Source: Solibacillus sp. FSL H8-0538 | Lineage (GTDB): Bacteria > Bacillota > Bacilli > Bacillales_A > Planococcaceae | DNA length: 64,000 nucleotides | Assembly: GCF_038003525.1 (NCBI RefSeq) | Contig: NZ_JBBOPI010000001.1 | Location: 2,037,001 to 2,101,000, forward strand | Direction of reading: 5' to 3' | Part shown: one piece after another, positions 38,203 to 56,180 of the stretch | How the letters are laid out: each line of letters starts with the position of its first letter | How positions within the stretch are numbered: position 1 is the first letter of the stretch | The notes under the pieces: model-generated | Told to the model about the DNA's origin: nothing | The model's input: only the letters and a program-made list of their open reading frames with translations | Databases searched by the model: none | Made by a program: the position numbers and the translations under genes

Positions 38203-40128
38203 TTAGTACCCCTCCCGCTCCTCCGCTACTTGTGTCAGCCAAGGTTGCACTTCTCCGTACTTCATTGCTTTTTGCAGTCTCATTTTAATATACTGTTGCA
38301 GCTCAGGATCTGTACAGAAGATAAAGCAACCTTTTTGCCCACGTGTCATGAGGGTCCGGTATGTGTTACGAATGATCGGATCAGCTTGGCGCATCGCTTC
38401 TTTAGGATTTTCCTTCATCATCTTCTTGATACCTTTGAGGGATTGGTCGGTTTTAGCTCGTTTTGTGTGGTCTGTGATGACTTGTCCATTTTCATAGCGT
38501 AAATCGTCACCGATAATCACGCCAACATAGTCAAACTCAAGTCCTTGAGCCGTGTGAATACAGCCCGCCTCTCGAACCGAATTATTTTCGATCGCCCATG
38601 TGTTGTGAATGTTCCAGCTGATACTGAAATCTTGTTCAGGGATCGAGATATCAAAATGATTTGCATCAGTGCGCCCTTCTTTTGGCCATTCCCAGCAATA
38701 GCCTGCCATAATGCGCGATTTATTGTTACTATTATTGAGCTGTTCAATTTCTTTTAGCAACTCATTCGGATTATCAAATACACGCACATCATATTCCATT
38801 CCATAATCATGTGTATTAGCTGTTTCACGAATTTCAAGAACATCGTCAAGCCATGCAATATAGGCATCTGAGCCGTCGCATCTGAACTGAGAAGTCAATT
38901 GCCCTGAAATGACCTCTGCTTGAAATTCTTTCGCATACTGTTTGATCACATCAACGCTACCAATATCACTTAGCGTCACCTTTTGATTTTCATCAATGAA
39001 GAACAGGCTAAACTTCGCCGCCTTAATAAGCTCCTTCACCTGATTTTCGCCTTTATTTTTGAACATACCGGACTTTTCATTTAGACGGTGCGCTTCATCT
39101 ATAATAATGACATCTATTTCGTTCAGCTCGGCTTCAGTAAAGCTTCCTGACCCCTTGAACAAATTATCGATATGCGTTTTGCGGAATGTGCCCTTTAGTT
39201 TTGTCGCATACACATCACGAGGTGCAGAATTTTTAGACACATAGAGAGTCATTAGCCCTTGATTAATAAGATTCACAAGCAAATTTATCGCCATCACGGA
39301 CTTACCTGTACCCGGTCCACCTTCAATAACCATCACTTGCTTCTTATGATTCTGCACACAATCCAAAGCCAAATAGAGTGCATCCTCGTAAAACACCTTT
39401 TGCTCATCAATCATGATGAATTCCTCATTACCCTGTAGCATATTGCTTAAGTAATCTTGAAGTGATTTCGACGGTCTAATGCGCCCATTTTCAATTTGAA
39501 AAATAAGCTGATTTTGATCGCCCTTACGAATATATTTTTTAATAAAATCACGTAATCGCTGAATTTCACCTTTTGTAAATACAGGTGCCTTCTCTAAATG
39601 CTCAGCATATATTGCATCCGTTAACGGATCTTCCTCCGTCTTACGGTAATTATGTAAATAGGCGCAGGGATTTAATCTAATATGTTTATCTTGTACGTTT
39701 TCATTGAAATCCTCTATTAGCGCTGCATATGACCAAGCCTGATACGATGGATGCGTGACCTCACGCAAACCACGTCCTAGCGCAGTCCGCACCAGCGCAT
39801 CTTTGCCGCTAACTTTTTCTACTTCCGTCCACTGCTTTAGCTCCACAATAACAACATGATCCTGCGTTCCATCATTGCCCGCCACAATAAAATCTACTCG
39901 CTTTGACGTATTCGGAATCTTAAACTCAATCGCCACTGCCGCATCACTCGGAATATCCTGATCCTGCATCACATTCGACATACGCTGCAACGAATTTTCC
40001 CACGACAAAATCTCCTGCTTCGACGTCCGGCCAATCTTCTCCTGATACGAGGAATACAAACGCTCTACTAACAATTCATTGGTTACGTCAGATATAAACT
40101 CGGTTTTTGTTGATTCGTAAATGATCAC
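38203..40128 (-). CDS. DUF2075-type protein: PD-(D/E)xK nuclease-like domain fused to a superfamily 1 helicase-like ATPase
   Basis: 641 residues from the GTG at 40128. The N-terminal region has RVDFIVAG ... VVIVELKQW, the D-ExK pattern of a restriction-type nuclease (Asp79, Glu96, Lys98). The ATPase follows: Walker A GGPGTGKS (270-277), DEAH (344-347), LTSQFRCDGS, AGCIHTAQGLEFDYVGV and TYRTLMTRGQKG. DUF2075 proteins are found in accessory DNA and are suspected defence or repair factors; the role is not established. AAAGGA precedes the start. It has no cotranscribed partner here. Confidence 0.88.
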   Translation of the reverse strand: MIIYESTKTEFISDVTNELLVERLYSSYQEKIGRTSKQEILSWENSLQRMSNVMQDQDIPSDAAVAIEFKIPNTSKRVDFIVAGNDGTQDHVVIVELKQWTEVEKVSGKDALVRTALGRGLREVTHPSYQAWSYAALIEDFNENVQDKHIRLNPCAYLHNYRKTEEDPLTDAIYAEHLEKAPVFTKGEIQRLRDFIKKYIRKGDQNQLIFQIENGRIRPSKSLQDYLSNMLQGNEEFIMIDEQKVFYEDALYLALDCVQNHKKQVMVIEGGPGTGKSVMAINLLVNLINQGLMTLYVSKNSAPRDVYATKLKGTFRKTHIDNLFKGSGSFTEAELNEIDVIIIDEAHRLNEKSGMFKNKGENQVKELIKAAKFSLFFIDENQKVTLSDIGSVDVIKQYAKEFQAEVISGQLTSQFRCDGSDAYIAWLDDVLEIRETANTHDYGMEYDVRVFDNPNELLKEIEQLNNSNNKSRIMAGYCWEWPKEGRTDANHFDISIPEQDFSISWNIHNTWAIENNSVREAGCIHTAQGLEFDYVGVIIGDDLRYENGQVITDHTKRAKTDQSLKGIKKMMKENPKEAMRQADPIIRNTYRTLMTRGQKGCFIFCTDPELQQYIKMRLQKAMKYGEVQPWLTQVAEEREGY

Positions 40129-40957
40129 AAGTATCACATCCTTTCATTAATATTCCTACGTTAAATGCTCATTTATCTAATCATAACAGAATTAAAATGG
40201 AAAATACCCACAAATGCCGTTATATCAACATTTGCGAGTATTTCAATTTGTATTAAAATGATTTTGATTTGTTCTAAGAATACCAGTATTCAGGACATAA
40301 AAACCCTTGTAAATACTGAATTTACAAGGGTTTTAGTGGCGTGTGTAAAATTTTTTTAAATGATTTGGCAATGTAAATCTCGAAAGTACATATTTCTCTT
40401 TCTTTAATAGTGTCTTGCCTCAAGCATAAATTTTTTCGCTAATTACATCATACTGCTCATAAAGCGAAAGTGTACAATATCTTTAACGATGTGTTCCAAA
40501 AGTGCGAGATATCAAGGTTTGTAAAAATCAGAGGTATAAAATTTTTAATAAGGTATTATCGTTTCCCACTGAATTGCGTTAGCAAAATGTTAACAACTAG
40601 TTACACACACCACCTGTGTGGAGTGTATGTGGCAACACATGAGATGTCGATGAGTTTAAGTAATTGGCTAGCTACAGTTTTTTTAATTTCTTTATTGTAT
40701 CGTTTTTGGCTCATAAAACAGACACGTCCTATCTCGGTTTTTATAATACCCGTTAACCAAAATGTGTCTATGAATTTAATCTACATTCACCTGAATTCCC
40801 CTTGGTTATTAACGCGTCCGCATCGAATTAGTATTAAAGCATTTTCAAAAAAGAACATATTCATTCATCTTAGGTGTATTCCCATCAACAAACGTTTTTT
40901 AGAATACTACATAATAAAAGAACACATCCATAGTCATGAATCCGTTCATAAATGATT
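40129..40957. other. Intergenic region with one hairpin
   Basis: 829 bases. A perfect hairpin at 40300-40334 is the only clear structure. A 161-codon open frame at 40470-40955 lacks a ribosome site and protein-like composition and is rejected. Confidence 0.5.
40300..40334. terminator. Orphan terminator-like hairpin
   Basis: AAAACCCTTGTAAAT pairs perfectly with ATTTACAAGGGTTTT. No gene that I can support ends here on either strand. Confidence 0.6.
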
Positions 40958-41086: not shown

Positions 41087-41100
41087 TCCTAAATCTATGA

Positions 41101-41361
41101 TTACTGACCGTTCTTCATGTTTTCTTGTGCTATTTTTACTAGCTCCTTAACCATACTCCCCCCGATTTTCCCACCTATTTTGCCTGCATGAAATGAAGTA
41201 AGTTGTCCGTTATATCCATCTTCCAGAGGAATACCTAATCCTTTTGCTACTTCAAATTTTGCATCTTCAGGTTTATTTGTACCGATGATTTCCACTTTTA
41301 ATGCATTAAGCGCCTGTCTTGCTTCAGGTACAAGAATTTTATTTCGACTTTTCCTTCCCAT
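41101..41361 (-). CDS. Divergent alpha/beta-type small acid-soluble spore protein
   Basis: 86 residues, preceded by AAGGGAGGGATTCG. It has the SASP skeleton EARQALNALKVEI ... AKFEVAKGLGIPL ... GKIGGKIGGSMVKELVKIAQ. The EIA-x-E-FG protease site is changed to FEVAKGLG, and a 12-residue insert widens the N-terminal half. It may be a minor SASP with altered degradation. Confidence 0.85.
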   Translation of the reverse strand: MGRKSRNKILVPEARQALNALKVEIIGTNKPEDAKFEVAKGLGIPLEDGYNGQLTSFHAGKIGGKIGGSMVKELVKIAQENMKNGQ

Positions 41362-42411: not shown

Positions 42412-44796
42412 TTAATGGTCTCGGTTTATAATATAATTCAAAAAATGCTTTAGGAAAGTAGTATTACGTGGCATCTCTTGCAATGCTTCCATTGCAGTAC
42501 AGTAATTTTCCCACATCTCCTTTTTGGCACCTTCCTGACCCAATATTGATACGAAGGTTGAGTTATTGTTTTCCGCATCCTTGCCTATGGGTTTTCCAAG
42601 TAAGGTTGTATCTCCCTCAACATCAAGCAAGTCATCCTTAATCTGAAACGCAATGCCTGCATGACGGGCAAATTTTTTCAAAACTTCCATTTCTACTTCA
42701 TTTGCTTGGGCGAGAATTGCTGGCATTATAAGTGAAGCTTCGAAGCCTATGCCTGTTTTATAAAAGCACATCATATTTAATTGTTCCAGTGTCAGTTGTC
42801 TCCCTTTAGAATCCAAGTCCATCGCTTGCCCTATACACATATTTGCTGTTGTTTGGGCCGAGTATTTTATTAGCTTAAGAACAGTCTTCGAATCGAACTG
42901 ATCAAGAGATGTTTGTTCTTCAATAGCCTTTTGAGTTAGAAAAAGACCAGTTATCTCAGATATGGCAATGTTGTACACCTCATGGAGAGTTGGACGTCCC
43001 CTACGAGTGGATGAATTATCCTGGGACGGTAGATCATCAAAAATTAGAGATGCTGTATGCATATATTCCAATGATCTCAAAAGTGGCTCGATTGCCGATT
43101 CATTTAATCCATACGCTTTTACGCCAATGAACCAAGTGACTATCGGCCTCAATCGCTTTCCATCACCTTCTAGACTGTAATTTGCAGCATCAATTATCGG
43201 CACTTCCATCAAAGTCATATTCTCCATTTTAGGGTTATTTAATATGTTGTTGATCTGAAGGCGTAATGTTTTAATTGTATTTATAAAGTCTTCCTGTTCT
43301 TTCCGTTCAATTTTCAAAATGGTAATCATATGGTCACGAAGCAGTTTATCAAAGAAATCTACATCATCTGCATTTCGAACCATGTCTTGGATAAGTCTAT
43401 TAAATTTACGATTTCCTGAAGCAAATATGCCCATAACTTCGTTGTATTTTTCATTACCCACTCGTTCTTTAAATCGTTTCAGTCCGTTTATAGCCCGATC
43501 CAAAATTACCTCACGAGTCTTAATGTCTGAGTTATACACGTTATGAATCAAATTGGAGATAACCGTCCAGTACAATTCAAAGGGGTTTATTAGATCCAAA
43601 CGTTTATCGTGATATTTTAAATAATAGGTATAGGGTGTTACCGCACCATCCCTCATGTCATCAAACATATCTGCAAAATCATCAGCCAGTTGATTGTAAA
43701 TGCCATAAAAGAAAGTTCGGTTGTTCAATTCCTTATCCTCTGGAGCACCAATTACTGAACGGACAATTAATCTTGAAGAAGAGGATTTTAAAATGACAGG
43801 AATATAAAGCTCTTCATTGGTGTAATTTGCATTAGATAAATCCTTTACACGGTCCACTTCCTGGGAATTAAAAAACACATAGGATTGCTCTAAAAAATTA
43901 TTTTTTGTCTCTCGTCGCTGATGTTCCTTAATATACACAAAGGCATCGCGGAGTTCCGAATGAATATATCTGATCAAGCCCACGTTAATTCCAGTCCACT
44001 CTCCCAATTCGGGAACAGATCCTGTGATAAGTGTTGTACGTATTAAATCGGTGTATTGTTTCTCCTCTCTATCGGATAAAATTTTCGCATCTAGAAGATC
44101 ATCAATAAATGGATAGGTTAGACCATAGGAATAGCCAAGCCTAATAGCTTTATCAAGTCTCCGAGTACGTTCTTCAGGAGATGTTTCATCCTCCATTTCT
44201 TCAACCTCTTGCATGATAATTCCAGCAATTATTTTAATGAGTTTTCTCTGGGCTTGCTCAACATCCATCTCCTTTGGAATGTTGGAGGATACAGTCTTTA
44301 GTTTGTTTATCACCCAGATTAGGCTCGATTCCACACCTTCCTTCTGGGCAATCCGGTACAACTCGACCATGCTAAACGTCTCGTCTTTGTCTCCTTGATT
44401 TGTTGCGGTAGAATGTATTAGGTGATTTTTCAAACTATCAACTACACGGCAAATCCTTTTCAATGTTTCGGGTGAGTCAAGGGCTTTGCCAAAATCTCGC
44501 ATAAATATATAGGAAATGCTTCGATCTAGGTAATTATCTAGTTTGCCTGTGTAATTTAGCCATTGGATATAATTGTGATATCCCTGAGAATCAGGTTTGC
44601 CCTTTCCACGCGAAAACAAGGATAATAATGAAGGATAATGAATATGTTTGTGTTTCCACAATCGTATATCTTCAGTTAGGGTTGAGACATAAGTCTTTTC
44701 CATGACTTGCGCATAAAGTGAATTAAAATAGTGAGCAGCCTTCTGCTCAGCTTGCCGATAGCATTCATCGGCATTTATTATTAACTCCTCATTCAT
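42412..44796 (-). CDS. Large polyprenyl-diphosphate synthase with two isoprenyl synthase-like halves
   Basis: 794 residues from the ATG at 44796 (GAAGGTG upstream); a TTG 17 codons earlier has no ribosome site. The C-terminal 270 residues are a complete trans-isoprenyl-diphosphate synthase: KRLRP (547-551), first Asp-rich motif DDLPSQD (587-593), RRGRPT, and second motif QIKDDLLD (718-725). Typical enzymes are about 300 residues. The N-terminal 520 residues are all-helical and carry IDDLLD (about 231-236) and QLADDFAD (369-376), the same DDxxD and QxxDDxxD pattern, so I read this as a second, diverged domain. The product could be a polyprenyl diphosphate or a terpene; a divergent amine-oxidase-like gene lies 650 bases away. 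Confidence 0.85.
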   Translation of the reverse strand: MNEELIINADECYRQAEQKAAHYFNSLYAQVMEKTYVSTLTEDIRLWKHKHIHYPSLLSLFSRGKGKPDSQGYHNYIQWLNYTGKLDNYLDRSISYIFMRDFGKALDSPETLKRICRVVDSLKNHLIHSTATNQGDKDETFSMVELYRIAQKEGVESSLIWVINKLKTVSSNIPKEMDVEQAQRKLIKIIAGIIMQEVEEMEDETSPEERTRRLDKAIRLGYSYGLTYPFIDDLLDAKILSDREEKQYTDLIRTTLITGSVPELGEWTGINVGLIRYIHSELRDAFVYIKEHQRRETKNNFLEQSYVFFNSQEVDRVKDLSNANYTNEELYIPVILKSSSSRLIVRSVIGAPEDKELNNRTFFYGIYNQLADDFADMFDDMRDGAVTPYTYYLKYHDKRLDLINPFELYWTVISNLIHNVYNSDIKTREVILDRAINGLKRFKERVGNEKYNEVMGIFASGNRKFNRLIQDMVRNADDVDFFDKLLRDHMITILKIERKEQEDFINTIKTLRLQINNILNNPKMENMTLMEVPIIDAANYSLEGDGKRLRPIVTWFIGVKAYGLNESAIEPLLRSLEYMHTASLIFDDLPSQDNSSTRRGRPTLHEVYNIAISEITGLFLTQKAIEEQTSLDQFDSKTVLKLIKYSAQTTANMCIGQAMDLDSKGRQLTLEQLNMMCFYKTGIGFEASLIMPAILAQANEVEMEVLKKFARHAGIAFQIKDDLLDVEGDTTLLGKPIGKDAENNNSTFVSILGQEGAKKEMWENYCTAMEALQEMPRNTTFLKHFLNYIINRDH

Positions 44797-45105
44797 TCGA
44801 TAACACACCTTCACTTTAAGTTCTCTTTTATCCTTTTTGAAAAACAATCTGAACCAATATTAGAATCCTATCTAAAAGATATAATATTTTCCAATTATAA
44901 CATCTGACATTTTCTCTAACTTGTTTTCTACTTCTCGACTTATGGTCATTATCCTCATACCAATTAATTATCTGATTAACAATCTATTCTTCTTTAAATC
45001 CCTAAATTCCTATTTTGCACCCGAAAGCACTTTATATGGAGCTTTTATTCATTGAAAAATAAATATGCATGTCGATTTATGTACAATAGGTTCAACTTAA
45101 GACTC
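44797..45105. other. Intergenic, upstream of the large isoprenyl synthase
   Basis: A/T-rich promoter-type region; nothing else recognised. Confidence 0.4.
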
Positions 45106-45390
45106 TCATTCCCTTTCAGTTTCCCATTGAGCTATCATTTTTACCTCATTCATTAAGTACTCTACAAACTGATCATCCTTTATCAACCATGCTTCATAAT
45201 TTCGTTTTAAAAACCGTTCGCCTTCTTCAAAACTTGTAACGGCTTGTTCCATTACGGTTTTATTTTTTTAATCCTCCAGTCCTGATCATTTTGGATAAAA
45301 AACCTCCGTTTCATAGTGATTAACACAAATTTGATAGGATTTAAAAAATTGGTAAACAATCGGTTTCATTTGACTATTCATTAACATAAG
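45106..45390 (-). pseudogene. Small gene interrupted by two in-frame stops
   Basis: One frame on the minus strand reads MKPIVYQFFKSYQ ... ETEVFYPK, then TGA, SGLED, then TAA, then 48 more codons ending MIAQWETERE. Both halves are protein-like (helical, charged), suggesting one small gene of about 90 codons that acquired two stops. The last 48 codons also have their own ATG at 45252, but its GGAGG is 20 bases away. No family recognised. Confidence 0.4.
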
Positions 45391-45445
45391 ATGTTAGGGT
45401 GAGTGGTTGTTATCTACTCAATATATATTATTGGAGAGTGATTCA

Positions 45446-47092
45446 ATGGCGGAAAGATCAAAACTTATTGTGGAAGTAGTTCCATTTGGACCAGACCAAG
45501 AAACAATGAATCAATTAAGAAGTATCTGTGACAATCATCCTATTATCCAACCGTTTTTACGTGGAACCAGGCATCTGTTGCTATCGTTTGAATTGCTTGA
45601 TCTTGAGGATATTCCAGGAAACAAATCCATAAACCACCCCAAAAGTTCTAAACCTACACCACCAAGTAATTTTTTAGCCACATACTATGACTACACCAAC
45701 AATCGTACAGTAATAGCCACTGGACCCATTCATGATCCTGGATGTATCAGTGCCTCCCAGTTAGATATGCAGCCGTTGCCAAGTACTGAGGAGTTTGAGT
45801 TAGCTCTAAATATTGTTCGAGATCACCCTGAGCTCGGCTGCTTAATTCGAGAAAATCTTGTGCGTCCTTACAGAGCAATGCCGGCACTCATCGATACAGA
45901 GCTTCCAGACGGCCGTATTGAAAGGACCCTTGCGGTTGGACTTCTTCCTGTTGAGGAAGATTCAGAGGATAGAACACAGAATACCGGAGAACCTTTACAT
46001 CAGATTGTCGGAGTTAATATGATTAGACGTGAAGTAATCTTATATGAAACTGGTGCACCGCCATTTTCAACAGCAAGTGTTCAAATCTGTGAGCCCCCGC
46101 CCGATGCCAATCAACCTACGGCAAGAAGAGGAACTTTGGGCCAATACCAAGTAAGAGTGTTGCAAGGCGATACTGAGGTATGGAGTTTCCTTGCAGTGAG
46201 ACCGGCTGCTTCTTCAGGTATAGTTGGTTCAGGTATCGAACTTCGAGATGTGCTGTATCGTGGAAAAAAAGTATTATCCCGTGCTCATGTACCAATCCTT
46301 AATGTTCGCTACGATAATGATGTTTGCGGCCCTTACCGTGATTGGCAGTGGCAGGAAGGGAGGTTTGAAGCTATTGGAACAGATATTGCGCCCGGATTCC
46401 GTATGTGTTCCACCCCTGCAAGAACCATACTAGATACTGGCTTCGATACTGGTAACTTTTTCGGTGTAGCTATCTATGTTGATGGGGATGAAATAGTATT
46501 AGTTAGTGAATTGGAAGCTGGCTGGTATCGATATATTAGTGAATGGCGCCTCCACAACGATGGTACGATTCGCCCACGATTTGGATTTGGGGCAATAGCC
46601 AATTCGTGTACATGCAACCCTCATACTCACCACGTATATTGGAGATTTGATTTTGATATTCGGACTGAGGGTAACAACTTTGTACAAGAGATCAACGAAA
46701 AGCCAAGTACCGGAACTTCGATTTTTCGAACTTTGAATTACGAAATTAGAAGGTCCCGTGATACTTTTCATAATAGACAATGGCTAATTTCTAACAAATC
46801 AACGGGTGAAGGATATACTTTGATCCCAGGTAAGAACGATGGTTCAGCAGATAGTTTTGGCGTTGGGGATGTATGGTTTCTTCGCTACCGTAGTTCTGAA
46901 TTAGATGATGGACAGGGTTTCACAACAAATTTAAATAAAGCAAGAGCTAATTTAGACAAATTCCTTAATAAGGAGAATATTAACGGTCAGGATATAGTGG
47001 TTTGGTATGCAGCACATTTCAGACATGATGAAACAAGTGAAGAGAACGTTTCGCACATTCTTGGTCCAGAGTTAAAACCTCGAAACTGGTAG
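45446..47092 (+). CDS. Copper amine oxidase-like protein
   Basis: 548 residues from the ATG at 45446 (TTGGAGAGTGATTCA). The C-terminal 300 residues follow the catalytic domain of copper amine oxidases: IELRDVLYRGKKVLSRAHV (264-282), the strand after it, GWYRYISEW (359-367) where the family has NY[D/E]Y with the topaquinone Tyr (here Tyr361 after Trp instead of Asn), HNDGTIRPRFGFG, a histidine pair HTHH (393-396) followed by WRFDFDI, and VVWYAAHFRHD (518-528) with the third-ligand region. Such enzymes oxidise primary amines to aldehydes. No signal peptide is seen, so it may be cytoplasmic. The altered TPQ motif makes activity uncertain. Confidence 0.75.
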   Translation: MAERSKLIVEVVPFGPDQETMNQLRSICDNHPIIQPFLRGTRHLLLSFELLDLEDIPGNKSINHPKSSKPTPPSNFLATYYDYTNNRTVIATGPIHDPGCISASQLDMQPLPSTEEFELALNIVRDHPELGCLIRENLVRPYRAMPALIDTELPDGRIERTLAVGLLPVEEDSEDRTQNTGEPLHQIVGVNMIRREVILYETGAPPFSTASVQICEPPPDANQPTARRGTLGQYQVRVLQGDTEVWSFLAVRPAASSGIVGSGIELRDVLYRGKKVLSRAHVPILNVRYDNDVCGPYRDWQWQEGRFEAIGTDIAPGFRMCSTPARTILDTGFDTGNFFGVAIYVDGDEIVLVSELEAGWYRYISEWRLHNDGTIRPRFGFGAIANSCTCNPHTHHVYWRFDFDIRTEGNNFVQEINEKPSTGTSIFRTLNYEIRRSRDTFHNRQWLISNKSTGEGYTLIPGKNDGSADSFGVGDVWFLRYRSSELDDGQGFTTNLNKARANLDKFLNKENINGQDIVVWYAAHFRHDETSEENVSHILGPELKPRNW

Positions 47093-54794: not shown

Positions 54795-56180
54795 CCTTAC
54801 TGGTTGCTTGAAGTGGGAGATTCCTAAGAACACCGGCGTAACCGCCAGTTATGGATTAGGCGATCCCCGCAGTCCCTGCGGTTAGAAGCCTTATCGTTTC
54901 CTTTTTAAGATTGATTCCTGCGTTAATATCACGATCGTGCTGAGTATGGCAGTCTGGACATTCCCATTCACGCAATCCAAGTTCTTTAACGTCTTTGTTT
55001 TTATAGCCACAACAAGAACATAGTTGACTAGAAGCAAAGTTTTTTGCAACGGTCACCATTTGTTTGCCGTACCATTTCGCCTTGTATGCAATCATGGTTT
55101 TGAATTGTGACCAAGATACTTCGCTAATGGCTTTGGCAAGATGCCCATTTTTAAGCATGTTACTTACCGACAAATCTTCCATCCCGATGATGTCGTGGTT
55201 TTTGACAATTTCTATTGAAATTTTGTCTAAGTAGTCTTTTCGTGCGTTTGCCATTTTTTTATGGATACGAGCCACTTTGATTTTAGCTTTGTACCAATTC
55301 GATCCGCCTATTGTTCGTCTACTCATGATTCGTTGTGCTTTGGCTAATTTTCCTTCTAAAGTGCGGAAAAACACTTTGGATTAGAGTAGATTTTTCCATC
55401 TGAGAGGATTGCAAAGTGTTTTAAGCCAACATCAACACCAACAGCAGCGTTTGTTTTTGGTAATTCTGCTACTTCGGTTTCAGTTGCTAACGAAACAAAA
55501 TACTTTCCTGATGGATTACGTCTAATGGTAGCACTCATGATTCGACCTTCAACTTTGCGGCTTTTCGCAAAACGAACTTTCCCTAGTTTTGGTAACTTAA
55601 TATGACGATCCACCACAGCGATATTTCCGTTCGTATGTTTAGTTGTGTACGATTGAACAGGATTCTTTTTAGACTTAAATCGAGGTTTCTTGTTTTGCCT
55701 TTTGTAGTAGCGATCATAAGAATCGGCTAAGTTTTCTACCGATTTTTGCAACGCAATGCTATCAACTTCCTTTAAGAACTCATAATGTTTCTTTAGTTTA
55801 GGAAGGGATTTAACGGTTTCGTTTTTATTGAAGAATTCACCTTTCCAATTATTTGTTGGAAGATGTCCATTCTGTTTCATTTCTTCGCAGATATACCAGT
55901 TAGCATCTTTGTCTTTTTGCTTGCCAAGAAAGAAGTTAAACACGAATCTTGAGCAGCCAATAGTTTTATTGATAAGTTCAATCTGTTTTTTGTTTAGATA
56001 GATACGGAACTTATAGGCTTTATTGACTAGCATGACTTTCACCTCAATTTAATAGGAACGTTTGTTCTTATTGAACCATAGCGAGGAAAGTTTTGGCTAA
56101 CGCCAACCGCCATTCATCTCCTACCTACTCACTGGGCTTCTCCCTTCTCATTCCTTGAGGTGGGAGTCTTCTTTCGGAAA
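54795..56180 (-). mobile_element. IS200/IS605-family element (TnpB only)
   Basis: Single-gene element carrying a TnpB-type gene and no TnpA. Its ends are marked by GAATCTCCCACTTCAAGC near 54805-54825 (minus strand) and TTGAGGTGGGAGTCTTC near 56155-56175, which are complementary as in IS605 subterminal ends. Exact tips and target motif could not be fixed. The 3' region beyond the stop would encode the guide RNA scaffold if active. Confidence 0.8.
54856..56033 (-). pseudogene. tnpB: TnpB RNA-guided nuclease gene with a one-base frameshift
   Basis: Two overlapping frames (55356-56033 and 54856-55374) become one 392-codon gene if one A is added near 55375, where SNPK-CFSAL should read [11 protein letters not shown]. 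All RuvC residues are visible: Asp in GVDVGLKHFAI, Glu in [10 protein letters not shown], Asp in [11 protein letters not shown]. The zinc finger CSCCG ... CPDC is intact too. The start at 56033 has GAGGTGAAAGTC. TnpB cuts DNA guided by an RNA from the element's end. The lesion is recent because nothing else is damaged. Confidence 0.88.

Follow-up and report, generated by a model that had tools for sequence, protein, structure and literature searches.

A protein of Bacilli that joins a trans-isoprenyl diphosphate synthase to a second, predicted class I isoprenoid-synthase domain

One gene in the window analysed here, a stretch of 64,000 nucleotides from Solibacillus sp. FSL H8-0538, encodes a prenyltransferase preceded by a large N-terminal part with Asp-rich motifs of its own, which raises the question whether this part is a second enzyme and which reaction it could catalyze. 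The gene starts with an ATG at 44796 on the minus strand and runs down to 42412, encoding 794 amino acids plus stop. The mechanical open reading frame is 17 codons longer and begins with a TTG, but we consider the ATG at 44796 the supported start because the homologues start there and because it is preceded by the Shine-Dalgarno-like AAGGTG. Very probably, the protein combines a prenyltransferase and a second class I isoprenoid-synthase domain in one chain, with the following parts:

42412..44796, minus strand: coding sequence of the 794-residue fused protein including the stop codon (open reading frame and full-length homologues)
44805..44813, minus strand: Shine-Dalgarno-like GAAGGTG region before the ATG (from the sequence; similar GAGG or AAGG in most homologues)
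44347..44796, minus strand: N-terminal helical extension, residues 1–150, less conserved than the rest, carrying the invariant YLxRS...RD (89–101)
43357..44346, minus strand: predicted class I isoprenoid-synthase-like core, residues 151–480 (AlphaFold2, Foldseek, dN/dS 0.09–0.13)
42415..43353, minus strand: C-terminal trans-isoprenyl diphosphate synthase, residues 482–794 (PF00348, E = 2.9e-51; PDB matches to FPP and GGPP synthases)

The domain junction is formed by one long predicted helix (residues 482–518), within which K484, R487 and D488 are invariant, and in the model it appears unlike a flexible or evident linker. Ahead of the synthase core, the N-terminal extension contains the invariant pattern LxxYLxRSxxYxxxRD (residues 86–101; 44494–44541, minus strand).

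The original prediction had placed a complete trans-isoprenyl synthase at the C-terminus, and this was confirmed. PF00348 matches with 174.5 bits against a cut-off of 27, although the match spans residues 536–766 only, and all catalytic motifs are invariant. Three of them were located by the family alignment:

43144..43161, minus strand: GKRLRP, the IPP-binding motif, residues 546–551
43018..43038, minus strand: first Asp-rich motif DDLPSQD, residues 587–593
42622..42645, minus strand: second Asp-rich motif QIKDDLLD, residues 718–725

The invariant residues comprise K547, R548, R550, D587, D588, D593, R598 and R599 as well as K680, T681, Q718, D721, D722, D725 and K735. By its sequence, the C-terminal domain is a full member of the trans-isoprenyl diphosphate synthase family, and homology together with the complete motifs indicates that it would condense IPP with DMAPP or other allylic diphosphates. 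The residues at positions −5 and −4 before the first Asp-rich motif influence chain length, and Ala-Ser at these positions, as opposed to Tyr-Ser, points to GGPP or longer products rather than FPP. The fusion protein carries an almost invariant Ala and Ser here, while the organism's own IspA carries Tyr-Ser. These two residues suggest a product longer than FPP, most likely GGPP. The same genome encodes two further PF00348 proteins, hence housekeeping FPP and menaquinone side chains probably do not depend on the fusion gene.

For the N-terminal part, the original prediction had named two Asp motifs at a believable spacing, and both are present, DDLLD at residues 232–236 and QLADDFAD at residues 369–376. 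The former had been called DDxxD-like, but it is a canonical DDxxD. The two clusters start 140 residues apart, compared to 134 in the C-terminal domain (587–593 to 721–725). In composition-preserving shuffles of residues 1–520, DDxxD occurred in 18% and QxxDDxxD in 0.7%, while the combination of both at a spacing of 110–170 residues occurred in 0.008% (8e-5). Four elements of this half are considered below:

44089..44115, minus strand: first Asp motif YPFIDDLLD, residues 228–236 (Y228, P229, D232, D233 and D236 invariant)
43852..43863, minus strand: QxxD, residues 312–315, invariant across the fusion family and resembling GQxxD of trans-prenyltransferase helix F
43774..43788, minus strand: KSSSS, residues 337–341, aligned with KTG of prenyltransferases
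43657..43692, minus strand: second Asp motif QLADDFADMFDD, residues 369–380, the best-conserved run of the N-terminal half

The QxxD is similar to the helix F motif by order and spacing only. The Asp residues of the N-terminal motifs are invariant in 81 Bacilli sequences and in a 47-row alignment, which adds 12 diverged members of 47–61% identity; among the Asp residues between 372 and 380, D379 alone varies in the latter. Across these 47 rows, whose identity goes down to 47%, both N-terminal Asp motifs and all catalytic motifs of the C-terminal domain are invariant.

Sequence searches placed the N-terminal half in no known family. Residues 1–520 gave no significant match in Pfam, NCBIfam or the PDB sequences, a search of the latter with an N-terminal profile returned chance hits only, and no terpene synthase family of Pfam or NCBIfam matched even at E ≤ 10. 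The score against PF00348 was 13.2 bits, below the cut-off of 27. In profile comparisons with hhalign, 3 of 150 column shuffles scored at least as high as the comparison with prenyltransferases, and the scores against DUF2600 and the squalene/phytoene synthase (SQS/PSY) profiles were indistinguishable from column shuffles. We thus discarded hhalign as proof of homology to any of the three, as the register of the motifs agrees but nothing is significant. An origin by tandem duplication of the C-terminal domain was likewise rejected, since apart from the second Asp motif no similarity between the sequences could be detected.

The original prediction had called for a structure prediction of the N-terminal part, and the model of residues 1–489 indeed yielded class I isoprenoid-synthase matches, albeit distant ones. 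AlphaFold2 with family alignments gave a pLDDT of 88.2 and a pTM of 0.88 for these residues, and 86.9 and 0.82 for the full-length protein, whose model matches FPP and GGPP synthases over the C-terminal domain. When the N-terminal model alone was submitted to Foldseek, all 50 of the 50 PDB matches listed were class I isoprenoid synthases (probability 0.97–1.00), among them octaprenyl, polyprenyl, FPP and GGPP synthases, hydropyrene synthase (8b4l), linalool/nerolidol synthase (5nx4/5nx5) and 2-methylisoborneol synthase (3v1v). Since the E-values are modest (0.005–0.05, best 5e-3) and the TM-scores amount to about 0.3–0.5, the relation is a distant one. The N-terminal domain is accordingly modelled with the alpha-helical class I isoprenoid-synthase fold, and from fold and motif order its two Asp clusters would face each other. 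In the viral library of Foldseek, two uncharacterised giant-virus proteins of about 300 amino acids, A0A6G8MX44 of Cedratvirus kamchatka (E = 7e-5) and A0A481ZCB8 of Pithovirus LCPAC403 (E = 4e-4), with a TM-score of 0.60, match the N-terminal domain better than any solved structure. Judged by these fold matches, they are possible viral isoprenoid synthases.

The distribution of the protein and the selection acting on it were analyzed next to its structure. A scan of 84,980 species genomes revealed 80 loci encoding the protein with 62–87% identity, nearly all end-to-end, in Psychrobacillus, Neobacillus, Metabacillus, Sporosarcina, Lysinibacillus, Virgibacillus, Oceanobacillus, Ureibacillus, Paenibacillus (including P. 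polymyxa) and other genera. Among 399 sampled Bacilli genomes, 46 matched at E ≤ 0.01 and 44 strongly (E ≤ 1e-134). Since each of the 44 strong matches sits in a frame of about 780–840 amino acids, the fusion appears to be fixed. Plasmid records contained no full-length copy. Two loci, in a genome called a Clostridia MAG (L007) and one called Arthrobacter (L021), encode proteins 79% and 74% identical to that of the window, and these more likely represent mis-binned or contaminated Bacilli sequence than wide transfer. Against close relatives, dN/dS was 0.09–0.13 for residues 151–480 and 0.07–0.14 for residues 520–794, indicating that both halves are maintained under similar purifying selection; residues 1–150 are looser (0.09–0.26).

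A homologue of the N-terminal domain also occurs as a stand-alone protein of 419 amino acids (L201:8302-9561) in a single genus that belongs to a different class of Bacillota. It carries the motifs YPYSDNYLDD and QLIDDLQDVKED and retains the equivalent of Q312 but not that of D315. The stand-alone relatives matched an N-terminal profile built free of them at E = 1.9e-9, and a genome HMM search matched a close relative of the stand-alone protein at 3.3e-10. As this remote relative exists without a prenyltransferase, the synthase domain appears to be modular. The interpretation of the N-terminal half in the original prediction is partly supported: a second isoprenoid-synthase domain is backed by its predicted fold, its invariant paired Asp motifs, purifying selection and a stand-alone relative. 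Some heteromeric prenyltransferases contain an inactive small subunit, and the domain could by this precedent be a non-catalytic regulatory subunit that tunes the chain length of the fused prenyltransferase. We regard this as highly improbable, because the N-terminal Asp motifs are all invariant, unlike those of degenerate subunits, and the domain occurs alone in another Bacillota class.

The residues that are missing bear on the type of reaction. In an unsupervised MAFFT alignment that combined the N-terminal domain with the C-terminal one, the stand-alone relative and the organism's own IspA and HepT-like proteins, the N-terminal DDLLD, K337 (KSSS) and QLADDFAD fell on the first Asp motif, the KTG and the second Asp motif of the three prenyltransferases, whereas GGKR(I/L)RP, RRGxP and LGK of the latter have no N-terminal counterpart. 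Also missing are the GK[PT] Lys and the His that precedes the first Asp motif. Compared to PF00348 enzymes, the N-terminal domain thus shares the fold class, DDxxD, the Lys, QxxDDxxD and their spacing and is devoid of the IPP-binding residues; by this alignment, it keeps the diphosphate/Mg site but not the IPP site. It could still be thought of as a second chain-elongating prenyl diphosphate synthase, with the whole protein building a longer chain in two steps, given the correctly spaced canonical motifs and the long-chain synthases among its best fold matches. Yet the absence of GKRxRP, the His, RRG and the Lys leaves no evident IPP site and renders chain elongation very unlikely.

Since the IPP-binding signatures are absent while the Asp motifs are kept, we prefer a terpene cyclase or other class I synthase over chain elongation, and the cyclase suggested by the original prediction is favoured as the putative activity. 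The N-terminal domain would bind a prenyl diphosphate via Mg2+ on D232/D233/D236 and D372/D373/D376, ionise it and then cyclise or otherwise convert it without adding IPP. Terpene-synthase activity of this half appears reasonably likely, while the case for GGPP as its substrate is evenly balanced. Ionisation motifs of the class I type that lack an accompanying IPP site would also fit any electrophilic reaction with an acceptor, and Bacilli use peptide-prenylating enzymes such as ComQ; prenyl transfer to a peptide or small-molecule acceptor, or hydrolysis releasing a linear prenol, would therefore be alternatives. The 81 loci, however, have no conserved adjoining small peptide or acceptor-pathway gene, and we consider such reactions quite unlikely. 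A biosynthetic cluster or a ComX-like peptide was searched for at the loci and not found; among the neighbours, which vary by species, neither a P450 nor an acceptor peptide nor any other tailoring gene occurs repeatedly. As the gene stands alone, the product of the favoured terpene-forming reaction may need no tailoring.

We compared the fusion to characterized systems. Fungal PTTS, chimeras of a prenyltransferase and a terpene synthase, turn IPP and DMAPP into a di- or sesterterpene. They are described as unique to fungi, and their synthase domain is defined by DDxxD/E and NSE/DTE (PMC8307374). The Solibacillus protein resembles them in its domain order with an N-terminal synthase and a C-terminal prenyltransferase in one chain (from the predicted folds), its length in the range of about 700–800 amino acids, its complete prenyltransferase, its two sets of Asp-rich motifs and the expectation that it works from IPP and DMAPP. 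It differs in being bacterial, in a synthase domain whose sequence is not recognisably related to any class I family and in domains joined by one predicted helix. Of the motifs of PTTS and canonical class I terpene synthases, DDxxD is present as the invariant DDLLD, while NSE/DTE is absent, the second motif being QLADDFADMFDD. By analogy, the N-terminal synthase would convert what the C-terminal prenyltransferase provides. Most likely, the fusion functions in the manner of a PTTS, although present evidence does not place it in that family, and it is rather likely a self-sufficient, PTTS-like two-step terpene-forming enzyme with a non-canonical, unclassified synthase domain.

The class IB large terpene synthases (DUF2600, PF10776; BalTS, YtpB) carry the motifs DYLDNLxD and DY(F,L,W)IDxxED (PMC11234867). 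Both they and the fusion are of the class I type with two Asp-rich motifs, and the second motif DDFADMFDDMRDG...YY aligns by eye with DYLIDQEEDREGG...YY, a stretch that hhalign picks as well. The fusion, by contrast, has PFIDDLLD with a Pro for the leading Asp and DDFADMFDD, so that the Asp spacing is similar but the motifs are not. PF10776 has no match in the N-terminal domain nor elsewhere in its genome, and the profile score equals that of shuffles, leaving the DUF2600 membership considered in the original prediction without support at the sequence level. Most DUF2600 frames span about 350–420 amino acids, and we know of no DUF2600 protein with a fused prenyltransferase.

The similarity to squalene/phytoene synthases (PF00494) lies in the second motif, where the Q(x6)D(x3)D pattern in QLADDFADMFDD matches QLTNILRDxxED; both motif pairs are in register by hhalign and the stand-alone relative carries QLIDDLQDVKED. 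This would be in line with a head-to-head synthase joining two C15 or C20 diphosphates from the C-terminal domain. There is, however, no PF00494 match, the profile comparison is not significant, and the fold matches listed are prenyltransferases and terpene synthases, so that we deem this reaction unlikely.

Non-canonical class I terpene synthases (ID/IE/IF) are missed by sequence mining, and one representative of class ID is encoded away from terpene gene clusters (PMC11234867). The N-terminal domain shares with them a class I-like fold unseen by sequence families, while the class ID motifs D(N/D), ND and RXXKD (PMC11234867) differ from those of the fusion. By motifs and family matches, it qualifies as none of the types compared, which were canonical class I, IB, ID and SQS/PSY. 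In the open-access literature, we found no description of the bacterial fusion; subscription papers and preprints were outside the scope, leaving priority uncertain. Only tentatively, and with some doubt, do we regard it as the so far undescribed equivalent of the fungal chimeras in bacteria, a widespread one, which would provide spore-forming Bacilli with a self-sufficient terpene pathway in a single gene; its synthase domain would found a new class among the class I terpene synthases and would have been joined independently to a prenyltransferase of the GGPP type. If so, well-studied soil Bacilli, e.g. Paenibacillus, Psychrobacillus, Neobacillus and Sporosarcina, would make a terpene product that sequence-based mining passes over because the prenyltransferase half alone is recognised. 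The terpene synthases would also gain a class that is readily tested with one gene and the substrates IPP and DMAPP, and an example of a fusion that arose independently, the PTTS-like arrangement being reported so far only in fungi (PMC8307374).

The surroundings of the gene yielded further observations. The host is a spore-former, and the next same-strand gene downstream encodes an 86-residue alpha/beta-type small acid-soluble spore protein (about 41100–41360, minus strand; PF00269, E = 1e-19); upstream of the fusion gene, sporulation sigma-factor promoters were not enriched. A 48-residue open reading frame upstream (45110–45253, minus strand) is 60–83% identical to the C-terminal end of a gene of about 395 amino acids with the DHH-like start MYKLLTHNDLDGVGCG, which is found near the fusion gene in relatives, and hence looks like a gene remnant. 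The 561-residue protein at 45407–47092 (plus strand) matches the latter part only of the copper amine oxidase enzyme domain (PF01179, profile positions 200–382). A protein with a Schlafen group 3 type helicase domain (38203–40137, minus strand; PF09848, E = 1.6e-100) is possibly defence-related, and two overlapping open frames at 54856–56042 (minus strand) resemble, by eye, a split IS605-type OrfB transposase.
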